46,385 bases of DNA from Paracoccaceae bacterium. GTDB lineage: Bacteria; Pseudomonadota; Alphaproteobacteria; Rhodobacterales; Rhodobacteraceae. Shown piece after piece: positions 16,418-39,613 of this stretch. A program made the translations under genes and the position numbers. Location of the stretch: contig SBGD01000095.1 in assembly GCA_006226775.1 (NCBI GenBank), forward strand, positions 1 to 46,385. Reading direction: 5' to 3'. How positions within the stretch are numbered: position 1 is the stretch's first letter; the number at the start of each line of letters is the position of its first letter. Below the pieces are notes generated by a model. That model made no database searches. It was given only the letters and a program-made list of their open reading frames with translations, and was not told where the DNA came from.

Positions 16418-16429
16418 TGGGTGTGCTTA
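16418..16429. promoter_or_regulatory. Degenerate TAAG-N4-CTTA operator upstream of paaG
   Basis: TGGG-TGTG-CTTA shares the TGTG-CTTA half with the site at 17109-17120. It lies just upstream of the paaG start on the minus strand. One half-site is degenerate, so the call is weak alone. It gains weight as one of seven related sites in the window. Confidence 0.35.
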
Positions 16430-16489
16430 TCAGGGGTACGAAGAGGTCGGCGGATCGGCATTTGTCGGCAGGGGCGTAGGGGAGGATGG

Positions 16490-16972
16490 TCAGGCGCTGC
16501 GCGCCTCGCTGGGTCGGACCTCATGCAGCGGCGCGCGGGATTGCTCGTTCTCGGAGGTGGCGATCTTGGTGGCAAGGCGGATGAATTCGCGCGTTTCCGC
16601 CGCGGTCAGGCTGGACAGGATGGCGTCCTGGCAGTCGGCCACGATGGGGCGCAGGCGCGTCAACATGGCCTCGCCGTCCTCGGTCAGGATCAGGACGCGC
16701 GCGCGGCGGTCTTTCGGATTGGTCGTGCGCGCCACCAACCCCTTGCTGACCAGCCGGTCGACCACGCCTCCGATGGTTGCGCGATCAAAGGCAATCGCCC
16801 CGGCAAGCGTCGCCTGGTCGATTCGCGGATGGTCGTGAATCATCGCCAGGGCAGCGAACTGGGGCGAGGTGAGATCCGTGCCGTGGCTTTTCATCTGTTG
16901 CGCAAAGATCGACGACGCGATCTGCTGAAGGCGCCGGATAAGGTGGCCTGGCATGGAATATATCTCTGACAT
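16490..16972 (-). CDS. MarR-family transcriptional regulator, divergent from second TRAP operon
   Basis: A 160-residue MarR protein. The recognition helix region DQATLAGAIAFDRATIGGVVDRLVSKG is near 52-78 and the wing TTNPKDRRARVLILTEDG near 83-100. It is divergent from the second TRAP operon and lies upstream of paaG. Its promoter fits TTGCCA (17001-17006) - 16 bases - TATTAT (16979-16984), read on the minus strand. The predicted transcription start coincides with the A of the ATG, so the message may be leaderless. An operator-like repeat sits inside the promoter spacer, implying autorepression. The effector is probably an aryl-CoA such as p-coumaroyl- or cinnamoyl-CoA (inference). Confidence 0.87.
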   Translation of the reverse strand: MSEIYSMPGHLIRRLQQIASSIFAQQMKSHGTDLTSPQFAALAMIHDHPRIDQATLAGAIAFDRATIGGVVDRLVSKGLVARTTNPKDRRARVLILTEDGEAMLTRLRPIVADCQDAILSSLTAAETREFIRLATKIATSENEQSRAPLHEVRPSEARSA

Positions 16973-16978
16973 ACCAAG

Positions 16979-17006
16979 ATAATATGCACACTTAGGGATT
17001 TGGCAA
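16979..17006 (-). promoter_or_regulatory. Promoter of marR with operator in the spacer, probable leaderless start
   Basis: On the minus strand, TTGCCA at 17006-17001 and TATTAT at 16984-16979 are separated by 16 bases, a near-consensus sigma-70 promoter. The -10 ends six bases before the ATG at 16972, so transcription would begin at or next to the start codon. Confidence 0.6.
16983..16994. promoter_or_regulatory. TAAG-N4-CTTA-type operator at marR promoter
   Basis: Read on the minus strand this is TAAG-TGTG-CATA, one mismatch from TAAG-N4-CTTA. The ten bases GCACACTTAG (16986-16995) recur exactly as the reverse complement at 17108-17117. The site overlaps the marR promoter, as expected for autorepression. 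Confidence 0.6.
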
Positions 17007-17108
17007 GCCGATTGACACCGGCGGGTGCCAGGTGGGCCGTCGATTATGGCATCGCGCCCGAAGAAAAATGGTGACCTGCCAAGTTTGTTATGCCATACAC
17101 CTATTTGC

Positions 17109-17120
17109 TAAGTGTGCTTA
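17109..17120. promoter_or_regulatory. TAAG-N4-CTTA operator upstream of second TRAP operon
   Basis: TAAG-TGTG-CTTA is a perfect half-site palindrome about 90 bases before the dctP-type start. It is the best copy of the motif near the divergent marR. No clear -35/-10 pair could be assigned beside it. The remaining intergenic sequence from 16973 to 17208 holds no gene that I can see. Confidence 0.6.
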
Positions 17121-17208
17121 CCTTAAAGGCGAGCGCGGGCTTCGGCCGTCTCAGGCTGCACGCAAAGGGCGCAGGGACGTCCATCACGGTTCTAAGGGAG
17201 GAACTTAA

Positions 17209-18255
17209 ATGACAACGACAAAATTTATCAAGGGTTTGTTGGGAACAGCCGCTGCCACGGCCATGCTGGCCACCGGCGCGATGGCACAGGACGTGACGCT
17301 GAAACTGCACCAGTTCCTGCCCGCGCAGGCCAATGTTCCGAAACTGGTTCTTGATGTCTGGGCCGACAAGGTCGAGGCCGATTCGGAGGGCCGCATCAAG
17401 GTCGACCGCTTCCCCTCGATGCAGCTGGGCGGCACCCCGCCGGAACTGCTTGACCAGGTGATCGACGGCGTGGCCGACGTGGTCTGGACCGTGGTCGGCT
17501 ATACGCCGGGCCGGTTCCCGTCGACGGAGGTGTTCGAGCTGCCCTTCATGGTCGAAGACGCGCGCGCGGCCTCCTGCGCCTATTGGAAGATGTTCGAAGA
17601 GCACATGGAAGAGCAGGAATTCGGCGGCGTGAAGATCCTCGCCACCTGGGTTCATGGCCCCGGCATGTTCCACACCGCCGATCCGGTCGAGACGCCCGCT
17701 GATCTTCAGGGCATGAAAATCCGCGGCGGGTCGCGCCTGGTGAACGAACTGCTGACGCTTGCCGGTGCCACGCCGGTCGGCATGCCGGTGCCCTCCGTGC
17801 CCGAGGGCCTGTCCAAGGGCGTCATCGACGGCACCACCATTCCGTGGGAAGTGACCGCCGCGCTGAAAGTGCCGGAACTGGTTGAGAACCACACCGAATT
17901 CGAAGGCCCGGCGCTCTATAACCTGACCTTCGTGCTGGCGATGAACGAAGAGGTCTACAACGGCATGCCCGAGGACCTTCAGGCGGTCATCGACGACAAC
18001 TCCGGCCTCAACCTGTCGGTCTTTGCCGGCGGCGTCCAGTCCGATGCCGATGGCCCGGCGCGCGAGGTCGCGGTCGAGATGGGCAACAACATCATCACCG
18101 TGACCGAGACCGAAGAGTGGCAGGAACTGGTCAGCCCGATCTATGAGTCCTGGGTTGCCGACATGGATAGCAAGGGCAAGGACGGCCAGGCGCTGATCGA
18201 CGAGGCCCGCGGCCTGATGTCGGGCGAGTGCAAGGGCGCCACCGGTCAACTCTGA
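17209..18255 (+). CDS. TRAP transporter substrate-binding protein (DctP family), phenylpropanoid operon
   Basis: A 348-residue periplasmic binding protein. Its signal peptide ends near AMA at residue 26, and mature DctP motifs follow. Arg172 in GMKIRGGSR is the conserved carboxylate-binding arginine, and TTIPWEV near 205 is in the second lobe. A GGGAGGAACTTAA ribosome-binding stretch precedes the ATG. It heads an operon with feruloyl-CoA-synthase-type ligase, crotonase, SDR, amidohydrolase and acyl-CoA dehydrogenase genes. The ligand is therefore most likely a hydroxycinnamate or phenylpropanoate. This ligand assignment is by context only. Confidence 0.92.
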   Translation: MTTTKFIKGLLGTAAATAMLATGAMAQDVTLKLHQFLPAQANVPKLVLDVWADKVEADSEGRIKVDRFPSMQLGGTPPELLDQVIDGVADVVWTVVGYTPGRFPSTEVFELPFMVEDARAASCAYWKMFEEHMEEQEFGGVKILATWVHGPGMFHTADPVETPADLQGMKIRGGSRLVNELLTLAGATPVGMPVPSVPEGLSKGVIDGTTIPWEVTAALKVPELVENHTEFEGPALYNLTFVLAMNEEVYNGMPEDLQAVIDDNSGLNLSVFAGGVQSDADGPAREVAVEMGNNIITVTETEEWQELVSPIYESWVADMDSKGKDGQALIDEARGLMSGECKGATGQL

Positions 18256-18264
18256 TCACGACCC

Positions 18265-18289
18265 GCCGCAGCCGGTCCTCGGCTGCGGC
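18265..18289 (+). other. Intercistronic hairpin between TRAP P and Q genes (phenylpropanoid operon)
   Basis: GCCGCAGCCG, a five-base loop (GTCCT) and CGGCTGCGGC form a perfect 10-bp stem. It lies 9 bases after the dctP stop, and there is no T tract. Position and shape match the hairpins of the other two TRAP operons. Confidence 0.75.
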
Positions 18290-18317
18290 ACACATCTGCC
18301 TGATGGGGAGGACGGCG

Positions 18318-18902
18318 ATGTACGGCTTCATGGATAGGTTCGCGCGGTTTTTCGCGGTTCTGGGGGGGATCGTCCTGTCGGTCCTGATCGTGCAGACCTG
18401 TCTGTCGATCGCGGGACGCTCGATCAACACCATCCTGCACAGTGAGTTCATGGAAACGACGATGCCCGGGCTGGCCTCGGCGTTGTTGTCGACCGGCGTG
18501 GGGTCGATCAACGGATCCTTCGAGATGGTCGAGGCGGGCATGGCCTTTGTCATCTTCGCCTTCCTGCCGCTGTGCCAGTTGAACGGGGCGCATGCCTCGG
18601 TCGATATCTTCACCTCGAGACTGCCACGGCGCGCCAACCTCGTGCTGCGCGGCGTGATCGAGATCTTCTTTGCCATCGCCATCCTCATCATCACCTGGGA
18701 GCTTTACCAAGGCATGCTGAGCAAGGCCCGGTCGGGCCAGACAACGCTCATCCTGCAATTCCCGGTGTGGTGGCCCTATGCGGTCAGCCTCGTGGCCGCG
18801 GTCGCGTCGGCGATTGTCGCGGTCTACGTGGCCGCGATGCGCACCCTGGAAATGACTACGGGCCACAGAATCCTGCCCGAAGACATGGAGGCGGACCATT
18901 GA
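18318..18902 (+). CDS. TRAP transporter small permease (DctQ family), phenylpropanoid operon
   Basis: A 194-residue membrane protein with four hydrophobic segments. These are near 12-33 (FFAVLGGIVLSVLIVQTC), 75-92 (MAFVIFAFLPL), 115-135 (GVIEIFFAIAILIITW) and 150-172. NGAHASVDIF near 93-102 is the usual motif after the second segment. It contains an unusually long first loop (about residues 38-70). GGGGAGGACGGCG precedes the ATG. The stop overlaps a TTG start of the next gene. It forms the membrane unit with the DctM protein. Confidence 0.88.
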   Translation: MYGFMDRFARFFAVLGGIVLSVLIVQTCLSIAGRSINTILHSEFMETTMPGLASALLSTGVGSINGSFEMVEAGMAFVIFAFLPLCQLNGAHASVDIFTSRLPRRANLVLRGVIEIFFAIAILIITWELYQGMLSKARSGQTTLILQFPVWWPYAVSLVAAVASAIVAVYVAAMRTLEMTTGHRILPEDMEADH

Positions 18903-20395: not shown

Positions 20396-20423
20396 ACAGG
20401 AACCATTACAGGAGCCATACCAA

Positions 20424-21188: not shown

Positions 21189-21192
21189 CACC

Positions 21193-21954
21193 ATGGCATT
21201 GATCGAACGTGACATCGACGGGGCGATTGCCACCGTCACCATGAACCGCCCCGACAAGCGCAACGCCATGTCGGACGCCTTCATCGCCGAGCTCGAGACC
21301 GCCTTCGCCACCCTGCCCGACGCGGTGCGGGTGGTGATCCTGACCGGGACGGCGGGGCATTACTGCTCGGGTCTGGACCTCGAGGAACACAAGGAACGCA
21401 GCGCCGAGGAGGGGATCTATCATTCGCGCAACTGGCACCGCATCCTCGACCTGATCCAGTTCGGCGGGCGGCCCGTGGTCAGCGCCATGTACGGCGCGGT
21501 GATCGGCGGCGGGCTTGAGATCGCCTCGTCCACGCATGTGCGGATTGCCGAGCCCTCCACGATCTTCCAGCTTCCCGAAGGCCGCCGCGGCATCTTTGTC
21601 GGCGGTGGCGCAACGGTGCGGGTCGGACGCATCCTCGGCGCGGACCGCATGACAGAGATGATGCTGACGGGGCGCAAGTACGACGCCGACGAGGGCCTGC
21701 GCCTTGGCCTTGCGCATTATTCGGTGGGCGAGGGCGAAGCGCTTGACCTGGCGCGCGAACTGGCCGGAAAGATCGCCCGCAACGCGCCGCTGTCGAACTA
21801 CTTCATGGTCCAGGCGCTGGCCCGGATCGAGGACATGTCGAAGGCCGATGGCCTGTTTACCGAAAGCCTGTGCGCGGCGCTCAGCCAGACGACACCGGAT
21901 GCACAAGAGGGTCTGCGGGCGTTCCTGGAAAAGCGCGCGCCGACGTTCCGATAA
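21193..21954 (+). CDS. Enoyl-CoA hydratase/crotonase (PhdE-like)
   Basis: A 253-residue crotonase. It shows MNRPDKRNAMSDAF near 17-30, GHYCSGLDLEEHKE near 55-68, AMYGAVIGGGLEIASSTHVR near 97-116 and QLPEGRRGIFVGGGA near 127-141. The Glu in LPEGRRG sits at a usual catalytic position. It would hydrate cinnamoyl-type CoA esters to 3-hydroxy-3-arylpropionyl-CoA. It starts four bases after the SDR stop and overlaps the MarR start (TAATG). The ATG at 21193, after CAGGTGACACC, was chosen over an in-frame ATG at 21160 inside the SDR. Hydratase-lyase (aldehyde-forming, Ech-type) activity is possible but less likely with an SDR and hydrolase present. Confidence 0.85.
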   Translation: MALIERDIDGAIATVTMNRPDKRNAMSDAFIAELETAFATLPDAVRVVILTGTAGHYCSGLDLEEHKERSAEEGIYHSRNWHRILDLIQFGGRPVVSAMYGAVIGGGLEIASSTHVRIAEPSTIFQLPEGRRGIFVGGGATVRVGRILGADRMTEMMLTGRKYDADEGLRLGLAHYSVGEGEALDLARELAGKIARNAPLSNYFMVQALARIEDMSKADGLFTESLCAALSQTTPDAQEGLRAFLEKRAPTFR

Positions 21955-22403
21955 TGCGGACGCCGGACCAGGGCCTTCGGAGGTATACCGGCTACCGCCT
22001 GCGGCGCACCACCAGCGCCGCCATGTCGCGGATCTCTGCCACGCTGGCCCCCTTCGGCTTGCGCCGGACGACGTTTTCGACGCTGGCGCTGGTCGTGGAA
22101 CATCCCGGCCTGCGGCAAAGCCAGGTGGCCGAGGCGCTGGCCATCGAACGACCGAATTTCGTCCAGATCGTGGGCGAGCTGGAAAAGGCGGGGCTGCTGG
22201 AGCGCAAGCTCGCCCGGAACGACAGGCGCGCCTATGCGCTGCACGTGACCGAGGCGGGCCGCGCGCTTTACGAAAAGGCAAGAGCGCAGGTTCGGGCCTG
22301 CGACAGCCAGTTGATCGAGGGCCTGACCCCCGAGCAAATCGAGGCGCTGCACGAGTCACTTCGGATCATGGAATACAACGCGACACATTTCGGAGACACC
22401 TGA
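21954..22403 (+). CDS. MarR-family regulator inside the phenylpropanoid operon
   Basis: A 149-residue MarR protein. GLRQSQVAEALAIERPNFVQIVGELEKAG near 50-78 is the recognition region, and ARNDRRAYALHVTEAG near 84-99 is the wing. The arrangement between hydratase and ligase genes, overlapping both by one or three bases, recalls PhdR/CouR/HcaR. These respond to hydroxycinnamoyl-CoA. With the divergent MarR at 16490 this operon has two MarR candidates, so either could own the TAAG-N4-CTTA sites. The ATG at 21954 overlaps the TAA of the previous gene; the longer frame from 21870 is an overlap artefact. Confidence 0.85.
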   Translation: MRTPDQGLRRYTGYRLRRTTSAAMSRISATLAPFGLRRTTFSTLALVVEHPGLRQSQVAEALAIERPNFVQIVGELEKAGLLERKLARNDRRAYALHVTEAGRALYEKARAQVRACDSQLIEGLTPEQIEALHESLRIMEYNATHFGDT

Positions 22404-25077: not shown

Positions 25078-25082
25078 ATCGC

Positions 25083-26684: not shown

Positions 26685-26696
26685 TCTGTATACTTA
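26685..26696. promoter_or_regulatory. TAAG-N4-CTTA-type operator/promoter upstream of the benzoate-CoA ligase operon
   Basis: TCTG-TATA-CTTA has one well-kept half. The longer string GTATACTTACTAAAAT (26688-26703) is repeated with one change, in reverse orientation, upstream of the FAD monooxygenase (39595-39610). TATACT at 26689-26694 could be the -10 element, so a bound protein would block it. The -35 region is weak. Confidence 0.55.
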
Positions 26697-26732
26697 CTAA
26701 AATGAGTCGCGAGACAGCAAGGAGGACCGATC

Positions 26733-27200
26733 ATGTCGCTTCAGGAGTTCAACACCCTCGTGTCAGGCATCGCCAAAAGCCTGGAAGGGCGCAGCGTCGA
26801 TGCCCGGTTGGGCGGTTTTCTCAACGAGACCTATCCGAAGGACGGCGAGACGTTCCAGAGGCTCGCCGCGCTCTGCGCCGAGGGCGAGCGTGACGGCTGG
26901 CTGATGCAGCGCGAGGGCGGCGGCATCAAGTATGGCCGCGCGATCAAGCCCGGCGCCGAGGCCGGTGCCTTCAGCGTCGACGTCGTGCGCATGAAGGACG
27001 TCAAGGGCCCGCACCACATCCACACCACCGGGGAAATCGGGGCGATTATGCCGATCGACGGCACGCCGCAATTCGACGGGATCGACCCCGGCTGGTACGC
27101 CTATCCGCCCGGCTCGGACCATCATCCGACGGTCAGCGACGGCGATTCATATGTGCTCTATTTCCTGCCGGACGGCGCGATCGAGTTCACGGGCAAGTAA
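26733..27200 (+). CDS. DUF4863 (PnbB-like) small cupin-like protein
   Basis: A 155-residue protein resembling DUF4863, the family containing 4-hydroxylaminobenzoate lyase (PnbB). The histidine-rich segment KGPHHIHTTGEIGAIMP near 90-106 and YPPGSDHHPTVSDGDSYVLYFLPDG near 124-148 look like a cupin-type metal site. It is the first gene of the benzoate-CoA ligase operon, with GCAAGGAGGACC before the ATG. No nitroreductase is nearby, so nitrobenzoate catabolism is not supported. A supporting role in benzoate metabolism is inferred from its position only. The family call is from memory of motifs. Confidence 0.65.
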   Translation: MSLQEFNTLVSGIAKSLEGRSVDARLGGFLNETYPKDGETFQRLAALCAEGERDGWLMQREGGGIKYGRAIKPGAEAGAFSVDVVRMKDVKGPHHIHTTGEIGAIMPIDGTPQFDGIDPGWYAYPPGSDHHPTVSDGDSYVLYFLPDGAIEFTGK

Positions 27201-27226
27201 GCCACGATCTTTGGGAGGGATTGTAG

Positions 27227-28789
27227 ATGTCTGAGACGATGCAAGTCGAGGTCGCAAACGGAAATGCCGCGGACTGGTTCGTGGACCGCCACATTCGCGA
27301 AGGGCGCGCGGCCAAGCCCGCCTTCGTCGAGGCCTGGGAGGGCGGGCGCACGCTGACCTATGGCGGGTTGGCCGAAGGCACGGCCCGCTGTGCCGCGGCC
27401 CTGAAACGCGCAGGCATCCGGCGCGAGGAACGCGCCGCGATGTTCGTCCTCGACCAGATCGAATTCCCCGAGATCTTCTGGGGCGCCTTGAAGGCCTGCG
27501 TCCAGCCCGTCGCGCTGAACACGCTGCTGGCCTCGGATGTCTACCGCGTCATCCTCGAGGACAGCCGCGCCGCGATTGCCTTTGTCTCGCACGAGCTTCT
27601 GGACGTGGTGCTGCCCGCGGCACAAGCCTCGCCGCATCTGCGCCAGATCGTGGTGATCGGCGGCGAAGCGCCCGATGGCACGCTGTCCTACGACGCCTTC
27701 ATGGCCGGCACGGCGCCCGAGACGACCACGACCTGTTCCTGTGACGAGGTGGCGTTCTGGCTCTATTCCTCCGGCTCGACCGGCGCGCCCAAGGGCGTGC
27801 GCCATGTGCATGACGCGCTGAAAGTGACCTGCGATACCTATGGAAACCAGGTGCTTGGCATCCGGGAGGATGATCGGATCTTCTCGGTCGCAAAGCTGTT
27901 CTTTGCCTATGGCATGGGCAACGGCATGTCGTTTCCCTTGGCGGCGGGCGCCACGGCCTGTCTGTTCAACGGGCGGCCCACGCCGGATTCGATCTCGGCC
28001 CTTTTGGAGACCTACAAGCCGACGATCTTCTGCGGCGTGCCCACGCTCTACGCGGCGATGATCCACAAGTGGGAAGACGAAGGCGCCCATCCCGACGCGC
28101 CGCTGCGCACCTGCATTTCCGCCGGTGAGGCCTTGCCCGCCGAGATCGGTCGCAAGTGGAAGGGCATCTGGGGTGTCGACATCATGGACGGCGTCGGCTC
28201 GACCGAGATGCTGCATATCTTTCTGTCCAACAAGCCCGGCGATATCGAATACGGCACCTCCGGCACCGCGGTTCCGGGCTACGAGGTCCGGCTGGTCAAT
28301 GAGGACGGCGCCGATGTCGGGCCGGGCGGCATCGGAGAGTTGCTGGTGCGCGGCAAATCCTCGGCGATGGACTATTGGAACCAGCGCGACAAATCCCGCG
28401 CCACCTTCGAGGGGCAATGGACCCGCACCGGCGACAAGTACCAGCTGACCGAGTCAGGCCGGTTCGTCTATTGCGGGCGCACCGACGACATGTTCAAGGT
28501 CTCCGGCATCTGGGTCAGCCCGTTCGAGATCGAGCAGGCTTTGGTGGAATATCCGGCCATCCTCGAGGCGGCGGTGATTGCGCATCGCGACGAGGAAGGG
28601 CTGGAAAAACCCAAGGCCTTCATCGTGTTGAAGGACGGCAAGACGGAAAGCGACCTTGCCGGGCTCAAGGACTTCATCAAGGACAAGATCGGCAAATGGA
28701 AATACCCCCGCTGGGTGGAAATCCTTGACGATCTGCCCAAGACGGCGACCGGCAAGATCCAGCGCTTCAAGCTGAGAGAGCCGTCATGA
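27227..28789 (+). CDS. bclA: Benzoate-CoA ligase
   Basis: A 520-residue ANL ligase typical of the benzoate-CoA ligase branch. The phosphate loop LYSSGSTGAPKGV is at 179-191, KLFFAYGMGNGMSFPLAAGAT near 223-243, GVGSTEMLHIFLSN near 323-336, YWNQRDKSRATFEGQWTRTGD near 384-404, and the catalytic A10 lysine Lys510 in TGKIQRFK. It makes benzoyl-CoA from benzoate, ATP and CoA, the substrate of BoxAB encoded 3 kb downstream. GGGAGGG precedes the ATG. It overlaps the next gene in ATGA. Substrates other than benzoate, such as 4-hydroxybenzoate, are possible. Confidence 0.93.
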   Translation: MSETMQVEVANGNAADWFVDRHIREGRAAKPAFVEAWEGGRTLTYGGLAEGTARCAAALKRAGIRREERAAMFVLDQIEFPEIFWGALKACVQPVALNTLLASDVYRVILEDSRAAIAFVSHELLDVVLPAAQASPHLRQIVVIGGEAPDGTLSYDAFMAGTAPETTTTCSCDEVAFWLYSSGSTGAPKGVRHVHDALKVTCDTYGNQVLGIREDDRIFSVAKLFFAYGMGNGMSFPLAAGATACLFNGRPTPDSISALLETYKPTIFCGVPTLYAAMIHKWEDEGAHPDAPLRTCISAGEALPAEIGRKWKGIWGVDIMDGVGSTEMLHIFLSNKPGDIEYGTSGTAVPGYEVRLVNEDGADVGPGGIGELLVRGKSSAMDYWNQRDKSRATFEGQWTRTGDKYQLTESGRFVYCGRTDDMFKVSGIWVSPFEIEQALVEYPAILEAAVIAHRDEEGLEKPKAFIVLKDGKTESDLAGLKDFIKDKIGKWKYPRWVEILDDLPKTATGKIQRFKLREPS

Positions 28790-29606: not shown

Positions 29607-30080
29607 ATGGGCCAGGACATATGGCCCACCCGCCCTTATGTGCCCGGCAAGACGGCCCGCCACCCGGACGGCGCCTTTGACGCGGTGCGACAGACGGCCA
29701 AGGCCGGGCTGTCGCCCGCAGAACTGTCGACATGCCAGGCGTTCCGGCTGGGGCGGCGCTATATCGAGACGGGTTATTACTGGGAAGCGCATGAGCTGCT
29801 GGAGCCGGTCTGGATGGCCCTGCCGGACCCGAGCGCCGAGCGTCGCTTCGTGCAGGCGCTGATCCAGATCGCCAACGGGTTTCTGAAACTGAAGATGGAC
29901 CGGCCCCGCGCCGCGCGGCGGCTTGAGGCGATTTCGCGAAAGTTGCTTGCCGGAACCTGTGGGGCGTCCATCATGGGCGTGGACAGCGACGAGATTCGCG
30001 GGCTGCTGGCCCGTCTGGGGCACAAAATTGATATGCAGGATAATGCATCATTTGACACTATTTCTGAAGATGCACCGTAA
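29607..30080 (+). CDS. DUF309 domain protein
   Basis: A 157-residue protein with the DUF309 signature FRLGRRYIETGYYWEAHELLEPVWMAL near 46-72, including the YWEAHExLEPVW core. RRFVQALIQIANGFLKL near 80-96 follows. The structure of this family is an alpha-helical bundle and its function is not established. It starts two bases after the hydrolase stop and closes the benzoate-CoA ligase operon. The ATG at 29607 was selected because the upstream extension overlaps the hydrolase frame. Its link to benzoate metabolism is context only. Confidence 0.8.
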   Translation: MGQDIWPTRPYVPGKTARHPDGAFDAVRQTAKAGLSPAELSTCQAFRLGRRYIETGYYWEAHELLEPVWMALPDPSAERRFVQALIQIANGFLKLKMDRPRAARRLEAISRKLLAGTCGASIMGVDSDEIRGLLARLGHKIDMQDNASFDTISEDAP

Positions 30081-30125
30081 ATGACTGTTTTTATTGGCCT
30101 TGGTTTGTGCTCTATTATGCATTAA

Positions 30126-30137
30126 TAAGTTTACTTA
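30126..30137. promoter_or_regulatory. TAAG-N4-CTTA operator upstream of boxC
   Basis: TAAG-TTTA-CTTA is a perfect half-site palindrome 50 bases before boxC. A TATTAT (30113-30118) just upstream is a -10 candidate, so the site would overlap the transcription start. BoxR, encoded in the same operon, is a natural candidate to bind here. The other bases from 30081 to 30187 are AT-rich promoter sequence without a gene. Confidence 0.6.
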
Positions 30138-30187: not shown

Positions 30188-31846
30188 ATGTCCAAGATGA
30201 TCGACTTTCAGACCAACCCGTCCAAGTACCGCCACTGGAAAGTGGAGTATGAGGGCCCGGTGGCGAACCTCATCATGGATGTGGATGAAAACGGCGGGTT
30301 GTTCGAGGGCTATGAGCTGAAGCTCAACTCGTATGACCTGGGCGTCGACATCGAACTGAGCGATATCGTGCAGCGCATGCGCTTCGAGCACCCGGAAGTG
30401 AAGGTCGTGGTGATGAAATCCGGCAAGGACAAGGTGTTCTGCGCCGGCGCCAATATCCGCATGCTGGGCGGTGCCGCGCATAGCCACAAGGTCAACTTCT
30501 GCAAGTTCACCAACGAGACGCGCAATGCCTTCGAGGCGGCGGCGGAAGACTCGGGCCAGAACTATATCGCCGCGGTGCGCGGTGCCTGTGCGGGGGGCGG
30601 ATACGAGCTGGCGCTGGCCTGCAACCACATCATGCTGACCGACGATTCCACCTCGGCCGTGGGCCTTCCCGAAGTGCCGCTTCTGGCGGTTCTGCCCGGC
30701 ACCGGCGGTCTGACCCGCGTGACCGACAAGCGCAAGGTGCGCCGCGACCGCGCCGATATCTTCTGCTCGATCGAAGAGGGCGTGAAGGGCAAGCGGGCGC
30801 AGGAATGGGGCCTCGTCGACGAGGTGATCCCGAATTCGAAGTTCGACGACACCGTGGTCGAACGCGCCAGGGAAATGGCCGCGAAATCGTCGAAGCCGGA
30901 TGTTGCCAAGGGCATTACCCTCGGCCCGCTCAACCGCGAGATTACCGACAACGCCGTCACCTATGACCTGATCGAGGTCGAGCTTGACCGCGAGGCGCGC
31001 ACCGCGACCATCACCATCAAGGGCCCCTCGGAAGAGGCCCCCGCCGATATGGCCGCCTTCGAGGCGCAGGGCGATCAGGCCTATATGCTGAAGCTGGTGC
31101 GCGAGCTGGAAGACACCATCCTGCACCTGCGCACCAACGAGAACGAGCTTGGCCTGTGGATTTTCAAGTCCCAGGGCGACCCCGAGACCCTGTTGACGCA
31201 TGAAAAGCTGCTGATGGACAACGCCGAGCATTGGCTGGCCAACGAGACGCTGCAATACTGGAAGCGGACGCTCAAGCGGATCGACGTCACCTCGCGCTCG
31301 CTGGCTGCCTTTGTCGAGCACGGGTCCTGCTTTGTCGGCATCCTCGCCGAGATCCTCTTTGCCGTGGATCGCAGCTACATGATGGAAGACGAGTTCGACG
31401 GCGACAATCGCCCGATGGCCGCGATCCGCCTGACCGATGCCAACTTCGGACGCTTCCCGATGGGCAACGACATCACCCGCCTGCAAACCCGCTTCCTGGC
31501 CGATCCCGAGCATGTGGAAAGCCTCAAGTCGCAGATCGGCAATGCGCTGGAGGCCGAAGAGGCCGACGCGCAGGGTCTTGTGACCGTGATCCTCGACGAC
31601 ATCGACTGGGAAGACGAGGTGCGTATCTTTGTCGAGGAACGTGTCGCCTTCTCGCCCGACGCTCTGACCGGCATGGAAGCCAACCTGCGCTTTGCCGGGC
31701 CGGAAACCATGGAGACCCGGATCTTCGGGCGTCTCACCGCGTGGCAGAACTGGATCTTCAACCGCCCCAACGCCGTCGGCAAGGACGGCGCGCTTCAGCG
31801 CTACGGCACCGGCGTGCGCGGCGACTACAACATGGAACGCGTCTGA
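30188..31846 (+). CDS. boxC: 2,3-epoxybenzoyl-CoA dihydrolase
   Basis: A 552-residue crotonase-superfamily protein, far longer than ordinary crotonases and typical of BoxC. The first half has FCAGANIRMLGG at 84-95 and GACAGGGYELALACNH near 132-147. The second half, with LHLRTNENELGLWIF and SCFVGILAEILFAVDRSYMM, matches BoxC. It opens the ring epoxide of benzoyl-CoA hydrolytically, giving 3,4-dehydroadipyl-CoA semialdehyde plus formate. GGAGGGCAAT precedes the ATG. It is the first gene of the second box operon, and boxB follows after 31 bases. Confidence 0.95.
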   Translation: MSKMIDFQTNPSKYRHWKVEYEGPVANLIMDVDENGGLFEGYELKLNSYDLGVDIELSDIVQRMRFEHPEVKVVVMKSGKDKVFCAGANIRMLGGAAHSHKVNFCKFTNETRNAFEAAAEDSGQNYIAAVRGACAGGGYELALACNHIMLTDDSTSAVGLPEVPLLAVLPGTGGLTRVTDKRKVRRDRADIFCSIEEGVKGKRAQEWGLVDEVIPNSKFDDTVVERAREMAAKSSKPDVAKGITLGPLNREITDNAVTYDLIEVELDREARTATITIKGPSEEAPADMAAFEAQGDQAYMLKLVRELEDTILHLRTNENELGLWIFKSQGDPETLLTHEKLLMDNAEHWLANETLQYWKRTLKRIDVTSRSLAAFVEHGSCFVGILAEILFAVDRSYMMEDEFDGDNRPMAAIRLTDANFGRFPMGNDITRLQTRFLADPEHVESLKSQIGNALEAEEADAQGLVTVILDDIDWEDEVRIFVEERVAFSPDALTGMEANLRFAGPETMETRIFGRLTAWQNWIFNRPNAVGKDGALQRYGTGVRGDYNMERV

Positions 31847-31877
31847 AACGCCCACCCTTTCTACTCAGGAGACCAAG

Positions 31878-33329
31878 ATGTCAGCGACACTCGATGTAAG
31901 TTACGACACCAAGATTCCCAACAACGTGGGCCTCAGCTCGGACCGCAAGGTTCTCAAGGCGCTGGAAAAATGGCACCCCGGCTATATCGGCTGGTGGAAC
32001 AAGCTGATCCCGCAGAACTTCCAGGACTCGATGGTCTACCTGCGCACCGCCGTGTCGGTCGATCCCAAGGGCTGGGCCAAGTTCGACTATGTGAAGATGC
32101 CTGACTATCGCTGGGGCGTGCTTCTGGCACCCGAAGTCGAGGGCCGGACGATCCCGATGGGCGAGCACAAGGGCCAGCCCGCGTGGCAGGAAGTGCCGGG
32201 CGAATACCGCAACATGCTCAAGCGCCTGATCGTGATCCAGGGCGATACCGAGCCGGGATCGGTCGAGCAGCAGCGTTTCCTCGGGTTGACCGCGCCGTCG
32301 CTCTACGACATGCGCAACCTCTTTCAGGTCAACGTGGAGGAGGGCCGTCACCTCTGGGCGATGGTCTACCTGCTGCAGAAGTATTTCGGCAAGGATGGCC
32401 GCGAGGAAGCCGATGACCTGCTGATCCGTCAGTCCGGCTCGGAAGAGGCGCCGCGGATGCTGGGCGCGTTCAACGAAGAGACGCCCGACTGGCTGTCGTT
32501 CTTCATGTTCACCTATTTCACCGACCGCGACGGCAAGATGCAGCTGGAAAGCCTGGCGCAGTCGGGCTTCGATCCGCTGAGCCGCACCTGCCGCTTCATG
32601 CTGACCGAAGAGGCGCATCACATGTTCGTCGGCGAAACCGGCGTGGGCCGCACGATCCAGGCCACGGTCGAGGCGATGAACAAGGCGGGGATCACCGATC
32701 CCTATGACATCGGCAAGGTCCGCGATCTGGGTGTCATCGACCTGCCGACGATCCAGAAGAAGCTCAACCTGCACTACTCCCTGTCGCTCGACCTCTTTGG
32801 CCAGGAGGTCTCCACCAACGCCGCCAATGCCTTCAACCACGGCATCAAGGGGCGCTACATGGAGAACCGGATCGACGACGATCACCAGTTGCAGAACGAC
32901 ACCTACATCGTGCGCAGCGTGGTCGACGGCAAGATCGTGGCGCAGGAAGTGCCGGCGCTGACGGCGATCAACATGCGCCTGCGCGACGACTACATCCGTG
33001 ACGCATCGGGGGGCATCGGGCGCTGGAACAAGATCATCTCCAAGGCCGGGGTCGAGTTCGAGCTGTTCCTGCCGCACGAGGCGTTCCACCGCCAGATCGG
33101 CGTGTTTGCCGCGATCAAGACCGATCCCGAGGGCAACATCCTGTCGGATGCAGAGTGGGAAAAGCGCCACGGCAACTGGCTGCCGACGCAGTCGGACGGG
33201 GATTTCATCCAGTCCCTCATGGTACCGTGCTACGAGGCCGGCAAATACGCCTCGTGGATCGCCCCGCCCAAGGTCGGCATCGACAACAAGCCCGGCGATT
33301 TCGAGTACGTCAAACTCCACATGGCCTAG
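31878..33329 (+). CDS. boxB: Benzoyl-CoA 2,3-epoxidase, di-iron oxygenase subunit
   Basis: A 483-residue di-iron oxygenase. Candidate ligands Glu125 (QGDTEPGS), Glu155 and His158 (EEGRH), Asp216, and Glu245 and His248 (EEAHH) have the spacing I know for BoxB. It epoxidises benzoyl-CoA at the 2,3 position using O2 and electrons from BoxA. The ATG at 31878 follows AGGAGACCAAG. A strong hairpin and a 54-residue Cys-rich ORF lie between this gene and boxA, whereas these are often adjacent in other organisms. Confidence 0.96.
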   Translation: MSATLDVSYDTKIPNNVGLSSDRKVLKALEKWHPGYIGWWNKLIPQNFQDSMVYLRTAVSVDPKGWAKFDYVKMPDYRWGVLLAPEVEGRTIPMGEHKGQPAWQEVPGEYRNMLKRLIVIQGDTEPGSVEQQRFLGLTAPSLYDMRNLFQVNVEEGRHLWAMVYLLQKYFGKDGREEADDLLIRQSGSEEAPRMLGAFNEETPDWLSFFMFTYFTDRDGKMQLESLAQSGFDPLSRTCRFMLTEEAHHMFVGETGVGRTIQATVEAMNKAGITDPYDIGKVRDLGVIDLPTIQKKLNLHYSLSLDLFGQEVSTNAANAFNHGIKGRYMENRIDDDHQLQNDTYIVRSVVDGKIVAQEVPALTAINMRLRDDYIRDASGGIGRWNKIISKAGVEFELFLPHEAFHRQIGVFAAIKTDPEGNILSDAEWEKRHGNWLPTQSDGDFIQSLMVPCYEAGKYASWIAPPKVGIDNKPGDFEYVKLHMA

Positions 33330-33339
33330 GATGACACTT

Positions 33340-33364
33340 GCGGAAGGGACGCCGTCCCTTCCGC
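33340..33364 (+). other. Intercistronic hairpin after boxB
   Basis: GCGGAAGGGAC, a three-base loop (GCC) and GTCCCTTCCGC form a perfect 11-bp stem starting 10 bases after the boxB stop. No T tract follows. It may stabilise the boxCB message or partly terminate before the small ORF and boxA. Confidence 0.75.
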
Positions 33365-33384
33365 CACACGACAGGGAGAGGCTC

Positions 33385-33549
33385 ATGCTGATCGAACGGA
33401 CCGCATTCTATACCGACAACGTCCTATCTCTCGCGACCCTGCGGGCCAGGTGCCTGGGGTGCAAGGATTGTTGCGGACCTTGCCACACGCTGATGCAGAT
33501 GCGCGAACTGCCCGAGATCGTGCTGGCATCCGGGAGGGCGCGCCCGTGA
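33385..33549 (+). CDS. Small Cys-rich protein between boxB and boxA
   Basis: A 54-residue ORF with Cys23, Cys26, Cys29, Cys30 and Cys33, a C-x2-C-x2-CC-x2-C pattern in CLGCKDCCGPC. It begins MLIERTAFYTDNVLSLATLR, preceded by ACAGGGAGAGG. Its TGA overlaps the GTG start of boxA (GTGA), so translation is probably coupled. Start signal, operon position and overlap support a real gene. I do not recognise a named family. The cysteine cluster could bind a metal or Fe-S cluster, perhaps as an assembly or electron-transfer partner of BoxA; this is speculation. Confidence 0.7.
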   Translation: MLIERTAFYTDNVLSLATLRARCLGCKDCCGPCHTLMQMRELPEIVLASGRARP

Positions 33550-34754
33550 CCGCACCGTTCAAGCAGCACCTGATCGATCCCGAAATCTGCATCCGCTGTT
33601 ACACCTGCGAAATGACCTGCCCGGTGCAGGCCATCGAGCACGACGACAACAACGTCGTGATCGACGCCTCCAAGTGCGAATTCTGCATGGATTGCATTCC
33701 CGTCTGTCCCACCGGCTCCATCGACGAATGGCGCGTCGTGGGCAGCAAGGACGAGGCCTATACGCTCGAACAGCAATACAGCTGGACCGAACTGCCCGAG
33801 CAGGGCGAAGTCACCGCCTCCGAGACCGGCATCAAGGGCGGCGAGTCCTCGGACGAGATCGACCCCGTCGCGGCCCTGCTGGCCGAGGCGCACAAGGGTG
33901 CGGGCGGCAAGGCCAAGGCCCCGGCCTCCGCCTCCAAGCCCACGATCAACCTCTACAACCTCGGCAATCCCGTGGAAGCGGCGGTGCAGGGCAACTACCG
34001 GATCACCTCCGAAACCTCCGACGCCGACACCCGCCACATCATCCTCGAGTTCCAGGGCAAGCCCTTCCCGGTGCTCGAAGGCCAGTCCGTCGGCATCATC
34101 GCCCCCGGCACCGATGCCGAGGGCAAGCCGCATCTACCGCGGCTCTACTCCGTCTCCAGCCCGCGCGACGGCGAACGGCCCGGTTATCACAACGTCTCCC
34201 TGACCGTGAAGCGCGAAGAGGGCGGCGTCTGTTCCAACTATGTCTGCGACCTGAAGAAGGGCGACAAGGTCAAGGTGACCGGCCCCTTCGGGGCCACCTT
34301 CCTGCTGCCCGCCGATCCCGATGCGCGGCTGTTGATGATCTGCACCGGCACCGGCTCTGCGCCGATGAGGTCGTTCACCATGGCGCGCCAGCGCACCGTG
34401 GGCAAGAAATCCGGCGGCATGATGTTGTTCTTCGGCGCCCGCACGCCCGACACCCTGCCGTACTTCGGCCCGCTCAACAAGGTGCCCTCCAGCCTGTTGC
34501 AAAAGCACCTGGTGTTCAGCCGGATGCCGGGGCAGGAGAAGGAATATGTCCAGGACCGGATGCGCGTCGAAGAGGACCTGGTGGCCGAAATGCTGATGGA
34601 TCCCAATACCCATATCTACATCTGCGGCATGAAGGAAATGGAGGACGGCGTCGAGAAGGCCTTTACCAACATCGCGGAATCCGTGGGCCAGCAGTGGCGG
34701 GCCCTGCGCGACAGCATGCGCGAAGAGGGCCGCTATCACGTGGAGACCTACTGA
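33546..34754 (+). CDS. boxA: Benzoyl-CoA 2,3-epoxidase, reductase subunit
   Basis: A 402-residue iron-sulfur flavoprotein. Two [4Fe-4S] motifs are complete: Cys15, 18, 21, 25 in CIRCYTCEMTC and Cys44, 47, 50, 54 in CEFCMDCIPVC. A linker rich in Ala and Lys follows near 110-132. Next come a ferredoxin-NADP reductase-like FAD site (RLYSVSSPRDGE near 197) and the nucleotide motif CTGTGSAPMRS near 266-276. It passes electrons from NADPH to BoxB. The GTG at 33546 overlaps the small Cys-rich ORF and gives a normal N-terminus just ahead of the first ferredoxin motif. Confidence 0.95.
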   Translation: MTAPFKQHLIDPEICIRCYTCEMTCPVQAIEHDDNNVVIDASKCEFCMDCIPVCPTGSIDEWRVVGSKDEAYTLEQQYSWTELPEQGEVTASETGIKGGESSDEIDPVAALLAEAHKGAGGKAKAPASASKPTINLYNLGNPVEAAVQGNYRITSETSDADTRHIILEFQGKPFPVLEGQSVGIIAPGTDAEGKPHLPRLYSVSSPRDGERPGYHNVSLTVKREEGGVCSNYVCDLKKGDKVKVTGPFGATFLLPADPDARLLMICTGTGSAPMRSFTMARQRTVGKKSGGMMLFFGARTPDTLPYFGPLNKVPSSLLQKHLVFSRMPGQEKEYVQDRMRVEEDLVAEMLMDPNTHIYICGMKEMEDGVEKAFTNIAESVGQQWRALRDSMREEGRYHVETY

Positions 34755-34755
34755 C

Positions 34756-35205
34756 GTGGAACAGCGCCCCGACACCGCCCATCAGCACACCATCCGTGTC
34801 ACTTGGGGCGATTGCGACCCCGCGCGCATCGCCTATACCGGGCGGCTGCCGTGGTTTGCGCTCGACGCCATCAACGGGTGGTGGGAGGACAAGCTGGGCG
34901 GTGACGGCTGGTTCCAGATGGAGGTCGACCGCAACGTCGGCACGCCCTTCGTCCGGCTCGAGATGGACTTCTCGCATCCGGTGACACCGCGGCACCCGCT
35001 GGTGTGTCACGTCTGGCCGGTGCGGCTGGGCGAGACCTCCATCGCCTTTCGGGTGGACGGGGAGCAGGACGGCAAGCTCTGTTTCGCCACGCGGACGGTC
35101 AGCGTCTTCATCGTCGCCGACCAGTTCCGCAAACAGGCCCCGCCTGCCGAGATCCGGCAGCTCATCGAACGCCATCTTCCCGCCTCCGAGCCCGTCGAAT
35201 GCTGA
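34756..35205 (+). CDS. Hotdog-fold acyl-CoA thioesterase (4HBT family)
   Basis: A 149-residue hotdog protein. RVTWGDCDPARIAYTGR near 14-30 is the 4-hydroxybenzoyl-CoA thioesterase signature, with the catalytic Asp near residue 19. It starts with GTG one base after the boxA stop and overlaps boxR by seven bases. Thioesterases are regular members of box clusters. A role in recycling CoA from benzoyl-CoA or dead-end aryl-CoA is likely, but the substrate is not determined by sequence. Confidence 0.88.
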   Translation: MEQRPDTAHQHTIRVTWGDCDPARIAYTGRLPWFALDAINGWWEDKLGGDGWFQMEVDRNVGTPFVRLEMDFSHPVTPRHPLVCHVWPVRLGETSIAFRVDGEQDGKLCFATRTVSVFIVADQFRKQAPPAEIRQLIERHLPASEPVEC

Positions 35206-36107
35206 AAGACGCGATTGCCCCGCCCGCCGACCGCGCCCAGGACCAGGCCAAGGCCCTGATCCGGCTGGTCGGCGCGCAGGTGCGCGCGGTGCGCAAGGGC
35301 GCGGGCTTTTCCCGGCGGGAATTGTCGGAGCGCTCCGGCGTTTCGGTGCGCTACCTGGCGCAGCTCGAAGCCGGTGACGGCAATATCTCGATCGGCCTGC
35401 TGCAACAGATCGCCACCGCGCTTGACGTGCCGATCGAAGAGTTGATCTGCGAGACCACGGCGCAAAGCGCGGAACTGGCGCATGTGGCATCGCTCTATGA
35501 CCGCGCCGATGCGGCCACCCGGGCGCGCGCGCTTCAGGTGCTCGACCCGTCGCTCGAACGCAAGTCCAAGGCCCAGCGCATCTGCCTGCTCGGGCTGCGC
35601 GGGGCCGGGAAGTCGACGCTGGGCGCGCTGCTGGCGTCCGACCTGGGCATGGCGTTCATCGAGTTGAACAAGCGGATCGAGACGCGCATCGGCGTGCCGG
35701 TGGGCGAGATCATCGCGCTTTACGGCGAGGACGGCTATCGCCAGATCGAGGCCGACACCCTGGGTGAGATCGTCGCCGAACACGACCGGATCGTGCTGGC
35801 CGTGGCCGGCGGGATCGTATCCTCGCCTGACAGCTTTGCGCGCGTCCTGCGCGATTTCCACACCGTCTGGGTCAAGGCCCAGCCGGCCGAGCACATGGAC
35901 CGCGTGCGCGCCCAGGGCGACCTGCGGCCGATGGCGGGGAACCCTCAGGCGATGGAGCAGTTGCGCCAGATCCTCAAGGCGCGCGAGACGCATTATGCCC
36001 GCGCGACCTATCACTTGGACACCAGCGGGCAGACCATCCAGACCTCGCGGGCAGAGCTTAACGAGTTGCTGCGCGCGCATGACTTTGCCACACCATCTGC
36101 GAACTGA
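35199..36107 (+). CDS. boxR: BoxR-type regulator: XRE DNA-binding plus shikimate-kinase-like domain
   Basis: A 302-residue two-domain regulator. An XRE helix-turn-helix spans about 20-83 (RRELSERSGVSVRYLAQLEAG and NISIGLLQQIATALDVPIEEL). A shikimate-kinase-like domain follows, with the P-loop GLRGAGKST at 132-140 and VLAVAGGIVSS near 199-208. This fusion is the BzdR/BoxR architecture, where the kinase-like domain senses benzoyl-CoA and the DNA-binding domain represses box genes. It is not a biosynthetic shikimate kinase. It lies inside the boxCBA operon, so it is probably autoregulated. The TAAG-N4-CTTA sites are candidate targets. Confidence 0.93.
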   Translation: MLKDAIAPPADRAQDQAKALIRLVGAQVRAVRKGAGFSRRELSERSGVSVRYLAQLEAGDGNISIGLLQQIATALDVPIEELICETTAQSAELAHVASLYDRADAATRARALQVLDPSLERKSKAQRICLLGLRGAGKSTLGALLASDLGMAFIELNKRIETRIGVPVGEIIALYGEDGYRQIEADTLGEIVAEHDRIVLAVAGGIVSSPDSFARVLRDFHTVWVKAQPAEHMDRVRAQGDLRPMAGNPQAMEQLRQILKARETHYARATYHLDTSGQTIQTSRAELNELLRAHDFATPSAN

Positions 36108-36136
36108 AATTCACCAAACAGAACGGGAAACGGGCC

Positions 36137-38203: not shown

Positions 38204-39213
38204 GATACAAGCTGCTGGGCCATTCCGGGTTGCGGGTCTCCGAGCTTGCGCTCGGGACGATGAACTTCGGCGATGACAAGCCTTGGGCGGTGGCCGACGC
38301 CGACACCCAGGACATCCTGGCCAGCTTTGCCGATCACGGCGGGACGATGATCGACACCGCGCCAAATTATGCCGGCGGGCGGGCCGAGAGCCTTGTGGGT
38401 GAATACACGCAAAAGGCGCGGGATCGGTTTGTCCTGTCGACGAAATACACGGCGTCGACGGAGGGGCATGTCATGGCCGGGGGCAACTCGGCCCGTACGA
38501 TGATCCGTTCGGTCGAGGACAGCCTGACCCGGCTGAAGACCGACTATATCGACCTGTTCTGGCTGCATTTCTGGGACGGCACCACGCCGATGGACGAGAT
38601 CATGCGCGCGTTCGACACCCTCGTGGCCTCCGGCAAGGTGCGCTACGTCGGCCTGTCGGATGTCCCCGCCTGGCTGGTCAGCCGTGCGGTGACGCTCACC
38701 GAGATGCGCGGCTGGGCGCGGCCGGTTGCGGTGCAGGTGGAATATTCGCTGGCCGCGCGCGAGGCGGAGCGGGAGTTCCTGCCGATGGCGCGCGCGCTGG
38801 ACCTCGGGGTGGTCGGCTGGGGGGCGCTTGCCGCAGGCGCGCTGAGCGGCGGCGCCGATCCCAGACGCCGCCCGAAGGACAAGATCCCCGGCCATGTGCA
38901 AAAGGCGGTCGAGGCGGCGCAGGCCGTGGCGGATGACGCGGGCCTGTCCTTGCGCGACGTGGCGCTGCGCTGGCTCTTGCGCGGCGAGGAGGCCGCCAAT
39001 GTCGTGCCGCTGATCGGCGCGCGCACGGCGGCGCAGTTGGGCGAGACCCTTGCCGCGGCGGACGGGGCGTTGGAGCGTGACGTGACCGACGCGCTGTCCA
39101 AGGCCACGGCACCCCGGCTGGGGTTCCCGCATGACCTCATCGCGTCAAGCTATCTGCGCCGGTTCGCCTTCGGCAAGGACAACGAGTTGCTGCCCTTCCC
39201 GCCGCGCGCCTAG
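38200..39213 (+). CDS. Aldo/keto reductase
   Basis: A 337-residue AKR-superfamily protein. It opens MRYKLLGHSGLRVSELALGTMNFG and carries the tetrad: Asp in MIDTAPNYAGG near 50, Tyr in the same segment near 55, Lys in LSTKYT near 81, and His in FWLHFWDG near 125. VPLIGARTAAQLGE near 268-281 is the cofactor-binding end. It would reduce an aldehyde or ketone with NADPH. As the last gene of the box operon it could act on reactive aldehydes from the pathway, such as the semialdehyde from BoxC; the true substrate is unknown. Confidence 0.83.
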   Translation: MRYKLLGHSGLRVSELALGTMNFGDDKPWAVADADTQDILASFADHGGTMIDTAPNYAGGRAESLVGEYTQKARDRFVLSTKYTASTEGHVMAGGNSARTMIRSVEDSLTRLKTDYIDLFWLHFWDGTTPMDEIMRAFDTLVASGKVRYVGLSDVPAWLVSRAVTLTEMRGWARPVAVQVEYSLAAREAEREFLPMARALDLGVVGWGALAAGALSGGADPRRRPKDKIPGHVQKAVEAAQAVADDAGLSLRDVALRWLLRGEEAANVVPLIGARTAAQLGETLAAADGALERDVTDALSKATAPRLGFPHDLIASSYLRRFAFGKDNELLPFPPRA

Positions 39214-39225
39214 CCCCCGGACGGC

Positions 39226-39453
39226 CTACCAGTTCTGGCAGTACGCCGGTGCCTTGTCGAGCCTGTCATGGCTGGCCTGCAACTCCTTGCAGGCGCTCTG
39301 CTCCTTGCAGGACATGCAGCGCAGGACGGCGGACCGATAGGCCACGGCCTCGAACTCGGGGTTGGCGTAAATCGCTTCCGCGATATCGCCGCCCAGACGC
39401 TTCGCCATGCCCTCGGTCAGGGTGCAGCTGTCGTTGATTCTCTGGAAAAACAT
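39226..39453 (-). CDS. DUF6455-like small cysteine protein
   Basis: A 75-residue protein with an RCMSCKEQSACKELQ segment near 45-59 and a PAYCQNW end. It resembles the DUF6455 family common in Rhodobacterales: two CxxC-like cysteines, a third, and a terminal Cys. AGAGGAGC lies before the ATG. It is convergent with the aldo/keto reductase and divergent from the FAD monooxygenase. An FNR-type palindrome lies 55 bases upstream. Function unknown; the cysteines may bind an iron-sulfur cluster or metal. It is probably unrelated to aromatic catabolism. Confidence 0.72.
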   Translation of the reverse strand: MFFQRINDSCTLTEGMAKRLGGDIAEAIYANPEFEAVAYRSAVLRCMSCKEQSACKELQASHDRLDKAPAYCQNW

Positions 39454-39508
39454 GTCACGGCTCCTCTGATGCCTGACGTTCAGAGTAGGCCGGAAATGAT
39501 AAGTGGAC

Positions 39509-39524
39509 TTTGATATGAGTCAAA
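39509..39524. promoter_or_regulatory. FNR-type palindrome upstream of DUF6455 gene
   Basis: TTTGAT-ATGA-GTCAAA differs from the FNR/FnrL consensus TTGAT-N4-ATCAA by one base. It sits upstream of the DUF6455 gene and about 120 bases before the FAD monooxygenase. It may put the small Cys protein under oxygen control. Pattern match only. Confidence 0.4.
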
Positions 39525-39553
39525 TAGCCCGAAATCAGCCCGCCCCATAATAG

Positions 39554-39565
39554 GAAGTATACTTA
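39554..39565. promoter_or_regulatory. TAAG-N4-CTTA-type operator, upstream copy at FAD monooxygenase promoter
   Basis: GAAG-TATA-CTTA is one mismatch from the consensus and contains the perfect palindrome AAGTATACTT. It ends six bases before the TTGACA -35 element. Confidence 0.6.
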
Positions 39566-39570
39566 CCATA

Positions 39571-39599
39571 TTGACAGGGCGGCGCGCCTGCCGTATTTT
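39571..39599 (+). promoter_or_regulatory. Sigma-70 promoter of the FAD monooxygenase gene
   Basis: TTGACA at 39571-39576, a 17-base spacer and TATTTT at 39594-39599 make one of the clearest promoters in the window. It is bracketed by two operator-like sites, one upstream of the -35 and one from the -10 end into the transcribed region. The layout suggests tight repression. Confidence 0.7.
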
Positions 39600-39601
39600 A
39601 G

Positions 39602-39613
39602 TAAGCATACATA
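39602..39613. promoter_or_regulatory. TAAG-N4-CTTA-type operator, downstream copy at FAD monooxygenase promoter
   Basis: On the plus strand TAAG-CATA-CATA; on the minus strand TATG-TATG-CTTA. The longer minus-strand string GTATGCTTACTAAAAT (39610-39595) matches the benzoate-CoA ligase operon site in 15 of 16 bases. It covers the expected transcription start. Confidence 0.6.

Follow-up and report, generated by a model that had tools for sequence, protein, structure and literature searches.

MobR of Comamonas testosteroni KH122-3s, a repressor that we take to belong to the MarR family, is paired with the mobA gene. Excerpts of the published reports give 3-hydroxybenzoate as the ligand of MobR (PMC6191541), describe the operators of BoxR and BzdR (Azoarcus and other Betaproteobacteria) as TGCA repeats, mainly TGCA-N6-TGCA (PMC6449761, PMC6678401), and give benzoyl-CoA as the ligand of BoxR (PMC4424350). 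Similar excerpts name the protocatechuate (pca) genes as the target of PcaV from Streptomyces coelicolor (PMC5487221) and cATTGA-N5-TCAATg as the box of Rhodococcus CouR (PMC4737184), one of the CouR/HcaR-type MarR repressors of phenylpropanoid operons. Here we analyze a palindrome, TAWGYRTRCWTA, that recurs at promoters of aromatic acid genes in a 46,385-nucleotide stretch of a Paracoccaceae bacterium (assembly GCA_006226775.1). This stretch, hereafter the window, is the whole contig SBGD01000095.1 (C95) and makes up 1.0% of a genome of 4.58 Mb, which is assembled into 104 contigs. We propose, with a probability of about 0.75, that the palindrome is the operator of MarR1, a MarR-family regulator of 160 residues (16490-16972, minus strand; Pfam MarR PF01047, 1.5e-15, and PF12802, 1e-11), that MarR1 likely represses five transcription units, and that the boxC operon is gated by MarR1 together with BoxR.

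A preliminary description of this DNA had listed seven related sites of the form TAAG-N4-CTTA, two of them perfect. All seven 12-mers are present in the window, as TGGGTGTGCTTA at 16418, TATGCACACTTA at 16983, TAAGTGTGCTTA at 17109, TCTGTATACTTA at 26685, TAAGTTTACTTA at 30126, GAAGTATACTTA at 39554, and TAAGCATACATA at 39602. The sites at 17109 and 30126 are indeed the only exact matches in the window, and just three exist in the entire genome, two of them on this contig; the match of 15/16 bases that had been noticed between 26688-26703 and the reverse of 39595-39610 is also correct. When two mismatches are allowed, TAAG-N4-CTTA occurs 20 times in the window against 30.2 expected, which is no enrichment, and this loose form was dropped as a definition of the motif. 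The palindrome TAWGYRTRCWTA with at most one mismatch is found at nine distinct places in the genome, seven of which lie on the window contig and correspond to six of the listed sites and position 13507, within the coding sequence 13392-14561. All five genomic occurrences of TAAGTRTRCTTA with at most one mismatch are on the same contig.

A second matrix was built from 21 foreign sites in the MarR1 promoters of other genomes, without any window sequence; the first-round training sites had been chosen with a matrix from the sites of the preliminary description. The six best places in the window under the foreign matrix are six of the seven sites, with scores of 15.7 to 19.0, and the next best reaches 9.0. 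These six are at or above 15.5, and the same number is obtained at 12, whereas 200 shuffles of the window gave a mean of 0.01. A control with 1000 shuffles of 930 intergenic bases gave a mean of 0.012 at the threshold of at least 15.5.

The six predicted operators stand at the promoters of five units. The operator at 16983-16994 (score 15.7) is located in the marR1 promoter, inside the promoter-like sequence TTGCCA-16-TATTAT (minus strand, 17006-16979), which predicts autoregulation; G751, the genome with the closest cluster, has the homologous TATGCATACTTA. The operator at 17109-17120 (16.8) lies 89 bp upstream of dctP (17209-18255, plus strand; Pfam DctP, 3e-40), the first gene of the TRAP/hydroxycinnamate operon, and G751 has the same 12-mer in the same place. 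A third (26685-26696, 16.7) precedes the pnbB-like gene and the benzoate-CoA ligase gene bcl (26733-28789, plus strand; Pfam PnbB, 2.2e-42; TIGR02262, 704.7 bits), a fourth (30126-30137, 16.4) precedes boxC, and two (39554-39565, 16.5; 39602-39613, 19.0, the best in the window) flank the mobA promoter. The idea of an operator shared across aromatic operons thus holds for the marR/TRAP, pnbB-bcl, boxC, and mobA promoters and fails for paaG: the site at 16418, in the 85 bp that separate the end of marR from the start of paaG, two minus-strand genes, scores 5.5, nothing similar was seen in the same marR-paaG gap of the related genome G762, and we rejected it as an operator.

The motif is associated with MarR1 genes well beyond the window. 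Among 149 genomes of the family, a search for MarR1 homologues returned 29 loci besides that of the window, and 18 of them have a site scoring above 10 within 500 bp upstream of the gene, often as a pair. In a set of 153 loci (2.72 Mb, some overlapping), all selected for MarR1, BoxR, or mobA, 63 of the 64 sites of at least 14 lie no more than 300 bp upstream of an orthologue of MarR1 or mobA; the sole remaining one precedes ECH2 in locus L123 (15.8). The association is clearest at mobA. A mobA match at E ≤ 1e-150 was present in 31 of 398 genomes sampled across the phylum; 30 loci were returned, two matches being without a locus, and setting that of the window aside left 29 loci, none used in training. 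A motif of at least 9 was found at mobA in 17/17 loci with a divergent MarR1 relative against 3/12 without one (p = 2e-5). In 80 named mobA loci (the best 80 of 592), the motif is present in 30/32 with MarR1 and in 14/48 without (p = 4e-9), although these are not 80 independent cases since many are close relatives (Bradyrhizobium). Neighbors resembling MarR2, the second MarR-family protein of the window, are excluded from these MarR1 counts.

A word count without any seed agrees with the matrix. In 41 non-redundant mobA promoters beside MarR1, AAGTATAC occurs 13 times and TAAGTATA 11 times, where the shuffle maximum is 7, and each occurs three times in 55 mobA promoters without a MarR1 neighbor. 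The top 8-mer in the 41 promoters, CGGATCAG (18), probably represents the beginning of the adjacent marR coding sequence. MarR1 is therefore the best candidate for the protein that binds the shared operator. In the preliminary description, the motif had been assigned to a MarR regulator, to BoxR, or to both; the counts at mobA favor the first, and the part given to BoxR is weighed below with the boxC promoter.

MarR2 (21954-22403, plus strand; homologous to MarR1 at 21987-22340), absent from the regulators listed in the preliminary description, is also a MarR protein and is encoded inside an operon that carries one of the sites. Nevertheless, it is hardly credible as the binder of the palindrome, the least probable of the candidates considered here: ECH2/dctP promoters near MarR2 relatives mostly lack the motif, with the L123 site as an exception, several of them show TAACTAT-type sequences instead (by eye), and at mobA the motif tracks MarR1 with MarR2-like neighbors left out. 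TAACTAT-type sequences recur, again by eye, before ECH2/dctP operons with MarR2-like genes in loci L116, L120, L123, L124, and L138, taking in L116 the form of a palindrome, ATAGTTAT-N5-ATAACTAT. They may represent the operator of MarR2; the window contains no ATAACTA. By position, MarR2 fits a CouR/HcaR-type role better than MarR1, and the CouR box (PMC4737184, excerpt) differs from the MarR1 motif.

The mobA-like gene (39632-41494, plus strand) was expected from the preliminary description to encode a flavin monooxygenase acting on 3-hydroxybenzoate. It very probably encodes a 3-hydroxybenzoate hydroxylase, with 2dkh as its best solved match (2dkh_A, E = 7.1e-245 over residues 1-619), a structure whose source we take to be the Comamonas testosteroni-type enzyme. 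Its promoter-like sequence TTGACA-17-TATTTT (39571-39599, plus strand) is enclosed by the operators at 39554 and 39602, spaced 48 bp apart. Two sites of at least 8.5 were found in 49 of 117 distinct mobA promoters, the window included, with a spacing of 15 bp in 24 (mostly of the Bradyrhizobium type), 30-35 bp in 12, and 45-51 bp in 13, among them the window. In 23/49, the paired sites have TTGACA with at most one mismatch between them; the operator-TTGACA-operator order is kept in relatives. As in the MobR-mobA system, a single palindrome is common to mobA and the MarR1 relatives divergent to it, and predicted operators occupy the mobA promoter of the window. Here, by contrast, marR1 adjoins the TRAP operon at a distance of 22.6 kb from mobA, whereas its orthologues in other genomes are divergent neighbors of mobA, an arrangement seen for related regulators in many proteobacteria, and further sites are present at bcl and boxC.

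Some smaller observations concern the mobA region. At Bradyrhizobium mobA loci (for example L201, L206, and L220), the operator has drifted to CAAGTATACTGA-N3-TCAGCATACTGA, and a 15-bp tandem replaces the promoter-enclosing pair. The L221 record is titled Frankia sp. RB7, and its MarR falls inside Bradyrhizobium in the tree, so this is probably a mislabelled genome. In the window, a small cysteine-containing open reading frame of about 75 residues (39200-39523, minus strand) lies between an aldo/keto reductase gene and mobA. A weak copy of the motif, TAAGTGGACTTT at 39500-39511 (8.5), overlaps its promoter-like element, and an exact TGCA-N6-TGCA (TGCAACTCCTTGCA, 39278-39291) occurs within it, about 350 bp upstream of mobA, which could be chance.

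The box cluster, whose order is conserved in relatives, contains boxC, boxB, and boxA (30188-34754, plus strand; domain matches), followed by BoxR (35199-36107, plus strand; PRK08154 subfamily, 360.4 bits against a cut-off of 204). With this regulator of helix-turn-helix (HTH_3) and shikimate-kinase-like (SKI) domains, the cluster has the features of a BoxR regulon. Two BoxR-type operators precede boxC: a distal one, TGCAGGATAATGCA (30034-30047), which is an exact TGCA-N6-TGCA, and a proximal one, TGCTCTATTATGCA (30108-30121), with one mismatch. Such a pair at about -155 and -80 of boxC is shared by the window and a number of relatives. TGCA-N6-TGCA with at most one mismatch was found in 33/33 first-round boxC promoters against 1/32 coding controls, and in 83/86 distinct boxC promoters of a wider set. 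BoxR could also be imagined as the protein that binds the TAAG motif, alone or jointly with a MarR, as boxR belongs to this cluster and box-pathway promoters hold two of the six sites. We rejected this and consider it very improbable: the operators described for BoxR and BzdR, in the excerpts cited above, are TGCA repeats, boxC promoters carry TGCA sites in 83/86 cases and a TAAG site in only 7/86, and family genomes that lack a BoxR orthologue (e.g., G024, G039, and G043) also have the motif next to MarR1. The likeness to the betaproteobacterial systems consists of a BoxR orthologue in the cluster and TGCA-N6-TGCA at boxC, the latter separate from the MarR1 motif. The window and six species of one other genus differ from these systems by adding an unrelated operator 4 bp from the proximal BoxR-type site.

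Conservation of this composite element was judged in the wider family, because the three other genomes of the window's genus all lack boxC (0/3); one of the three has a MarR1 match at E ≤ 1e-30. In the 153 loci, no box or bcl promoter had a site scoring 14 or more, and a wider search of boxC promoters was therefore made. boxC is present in 81/394 family genomes, of which G019 was dropped as its promoter reaches the contig end, and after five more species from the genus to which G762 belongs and one metagenome-assembled genome (L154) had been added, 86 distinct promoters were compared. A MarR1 site of at least 14 is located at boxC in seven of them, those of the window and of all six species found of the G762 genus. 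In these six species, an identical TAAGTTTACTTAC occupies the same place and adjoins TGTGCTYTATTRTGCA, and a second, overlapping MarR1-like site (9.4-17.9) precedes it. When the seven promoters are aligned, 12/12 columns of the MarR1 site and 12/14 of the proximal BoxR element are invariant, compared with 41/168 of the others. The composite of MarR1 and BoxR sites is thus conserved in a second genus, in each of the six species found. Searches of the literature, limited to titles and abstract openings and with MobR's own papers outside their scope, found no description of such a dual MarR1/BoxR element.

The G762 genus also connects MarR1 to bcl. In its species, MarR1 (62-64% identical) is divergent to bcl, with paaG beyond, and in 6/6 the gap between the two has a CAAG-type site close to marR1 and, ahead of bcl, GGTGTAYGCTTAYCAAA, which resembles CTGTATACTTACTAAA before pnbB-bcl in the window (both by eye). 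In G762 itself, the sole exact TAWGYRTRCWTA of the genome is at boxC, and boxR is on another contig. In three of the six species (L372, L374, and L375), MarR1 and bcl are separated by about 820 bp, a stretch that seems, by eye, to contain a MarR2-like gene. The PnbB-like gene (26733-27200; Pfam of 4-hydroxylaminobenzoate lyase), the first before bcl in the window, is also adjacent to bcl in L085, L090, L094, L302, and L304.

Several observations weigh against the proposed regulon. The first-round scan of MarR1 promoters was partly circular, since its matrix came from the sites of the preliminary description. No site above 10 was found upstream of 11/29 MarR1 homologues; the motif occurs at mobA without an adjacent MarR1 (14/48 and 3/12) and is missing from 2/32 MarR1-adjacent mobA loci. 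Box and bcl promoters in the 153 loci gave zero sites of at least 14, and 79/86 boxC promoters have none, including those of two close relatives. One of these is G751, with BoxC 88% identical and the same order from marR1 to mobA as the window: it retains TAAGTGTGCTTA ahead of dctP, together with sites upstream of marR1 and mobA, has no site at bcl, reaches only 10.0 at boxC (at -126), and shows no BoxR-type site at boxC within the stretch searched. G148, whose MarR1 belongs to the same clade, lacks a good site at the marR promoter (6.4), boxC (1.7), and bcl (8.6). Further exact consensus places are present in both genomes, two in G751 (C91) and one in G148 (C4). Moreover, a promoter element (-35) may account for the central part of the boxC site, because TTTAC is common there (at -80 to -40 in 51/86 boxC promoters). 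The candidate promoter TTTACT-17-TAAACT has only 8/12 consensus matches, and a promoter scan found nothing at boxC and bcl.

These points invite a narrower interpretation in which MarR1 is limited to its own gene, the TRAP operon, and mobA, and the boxC and bcl sites are promoter elements or chance resemblances. The frequency of TTTAC at this position of boxC and the boxC/bcl promoters of other clusters without a MarR1 site, those of G751 and G148 included, would be expected from it. We regard it as unlikely, since the TAAG and TTA that flank TTTAC are invariant too (12/12 columns in seven sequences), MarR1 is divergent to bcl in the G762 genus, and scores such as those at boxC (16.4) and bcl (16.7) are reached 0.01 times per shuffled window. 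Control of all five units by MarR1 is in our view the better account. The sequences support its link to the box operon well, although of the genomes searched only the window's own and those of one other genus have this link. For the preliminary description, which had proposed scanning for the motif in coding regions and at orthologous promoters, the outcome is divided: the specific motif occurs mainly at promoters, with wide conservation at orthologues of marR and mobA, but at boxC it is conserved in only one other genus (6/6 species) and missing from all remaining promoters compared (79/86).

By sequence, the nearest solved relative of MarR1 is PcaV (4fht, E = 1.3e-17). They have PGHLxRRLQQ in common, the two arginines of which are invariant in 93/93 MarR1 homologues, and this suggests a benzoate-type ligand for MarR1. 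The RR pair aligns with PcaV, where a ligand-binding role presumably belongs to an arginine near the N terminus. PcaV differs in its targets, the pca genes (PMC5487221, excerpt). In a quick-method tree of 93 rows, in which 50/90 inner branches are open, MarR1 of the window, G751, G762, and G148 form one clade (99), and the link of this clade to mobA-adjacent MarRs is weak (81, open).

The positions of the sites, at or in the target promoters, are those expected of a repressor, because the marR1 site overlaps a promoter-like element, the mobA pair brackets the promoter, and the boxC site may overlap a -35 element. A MarR1 dimer probably represses its own gene, the TRAP/hydroxycinnamate operon, pnbB-bcl, boxC, and mobA. 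The inducer that releases MarR1 would be an aromatic acid, with 3-hydroxybenzoate or a relative of benzoate as the most likely candidates, and the free acid would thereby free the uptake, side-chain, ligase, box, and mobA genes from MarR1, while benzoyl-CoA would free the box genes from BoxR. Since a BoxR-type site lies 4 bp from the MarR1 site, the two sensors probably control the box operon together, which would be fully open only after the release of both MarR1 (by the free acid) and BoxR (by benzoyl-CoA). The sequences themselves show the motif, its association with MarR1, the separate BoxR-type sites, and the conserved composite; binding and repression by MarR1, its inducer, and the response to two signals are inferred from them. 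As to how this arose, we lean slightly toward a history within one MobR-like clade, in which the regulator gene moved away from mobA into the benzoyl-CoA/hydroxycinnamate cluster, and bcl and boxC acquired operators for its product. The MarR1 site at boxC would have fused with the proximal BoxR site, and the composite element would then be a two-input gate, for free aromatic acid and benzoyl-CoA, built by recruiting the repressor of a neighboring pathway.

Downstream of mobA, the DctM gene of a second TRAP transporter (41507-43039, minus strand) is split by an in-frame stop into two open reading frames (model parts 2-194 and 241-413), which represents either a pseudogene or a sequencing error.

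For MarR regulators adjoining mobA, this analysis supplies a named candidate binder and a defined motif, and it sets the BoxR operators apart from a second control layer on the box pathway. If true, the proposed history would be a comparable case of regulon capture, and the relatives with the boxC site (the G762 genus) and without it (G751 and G148) make its gain testable promoter by promoter.

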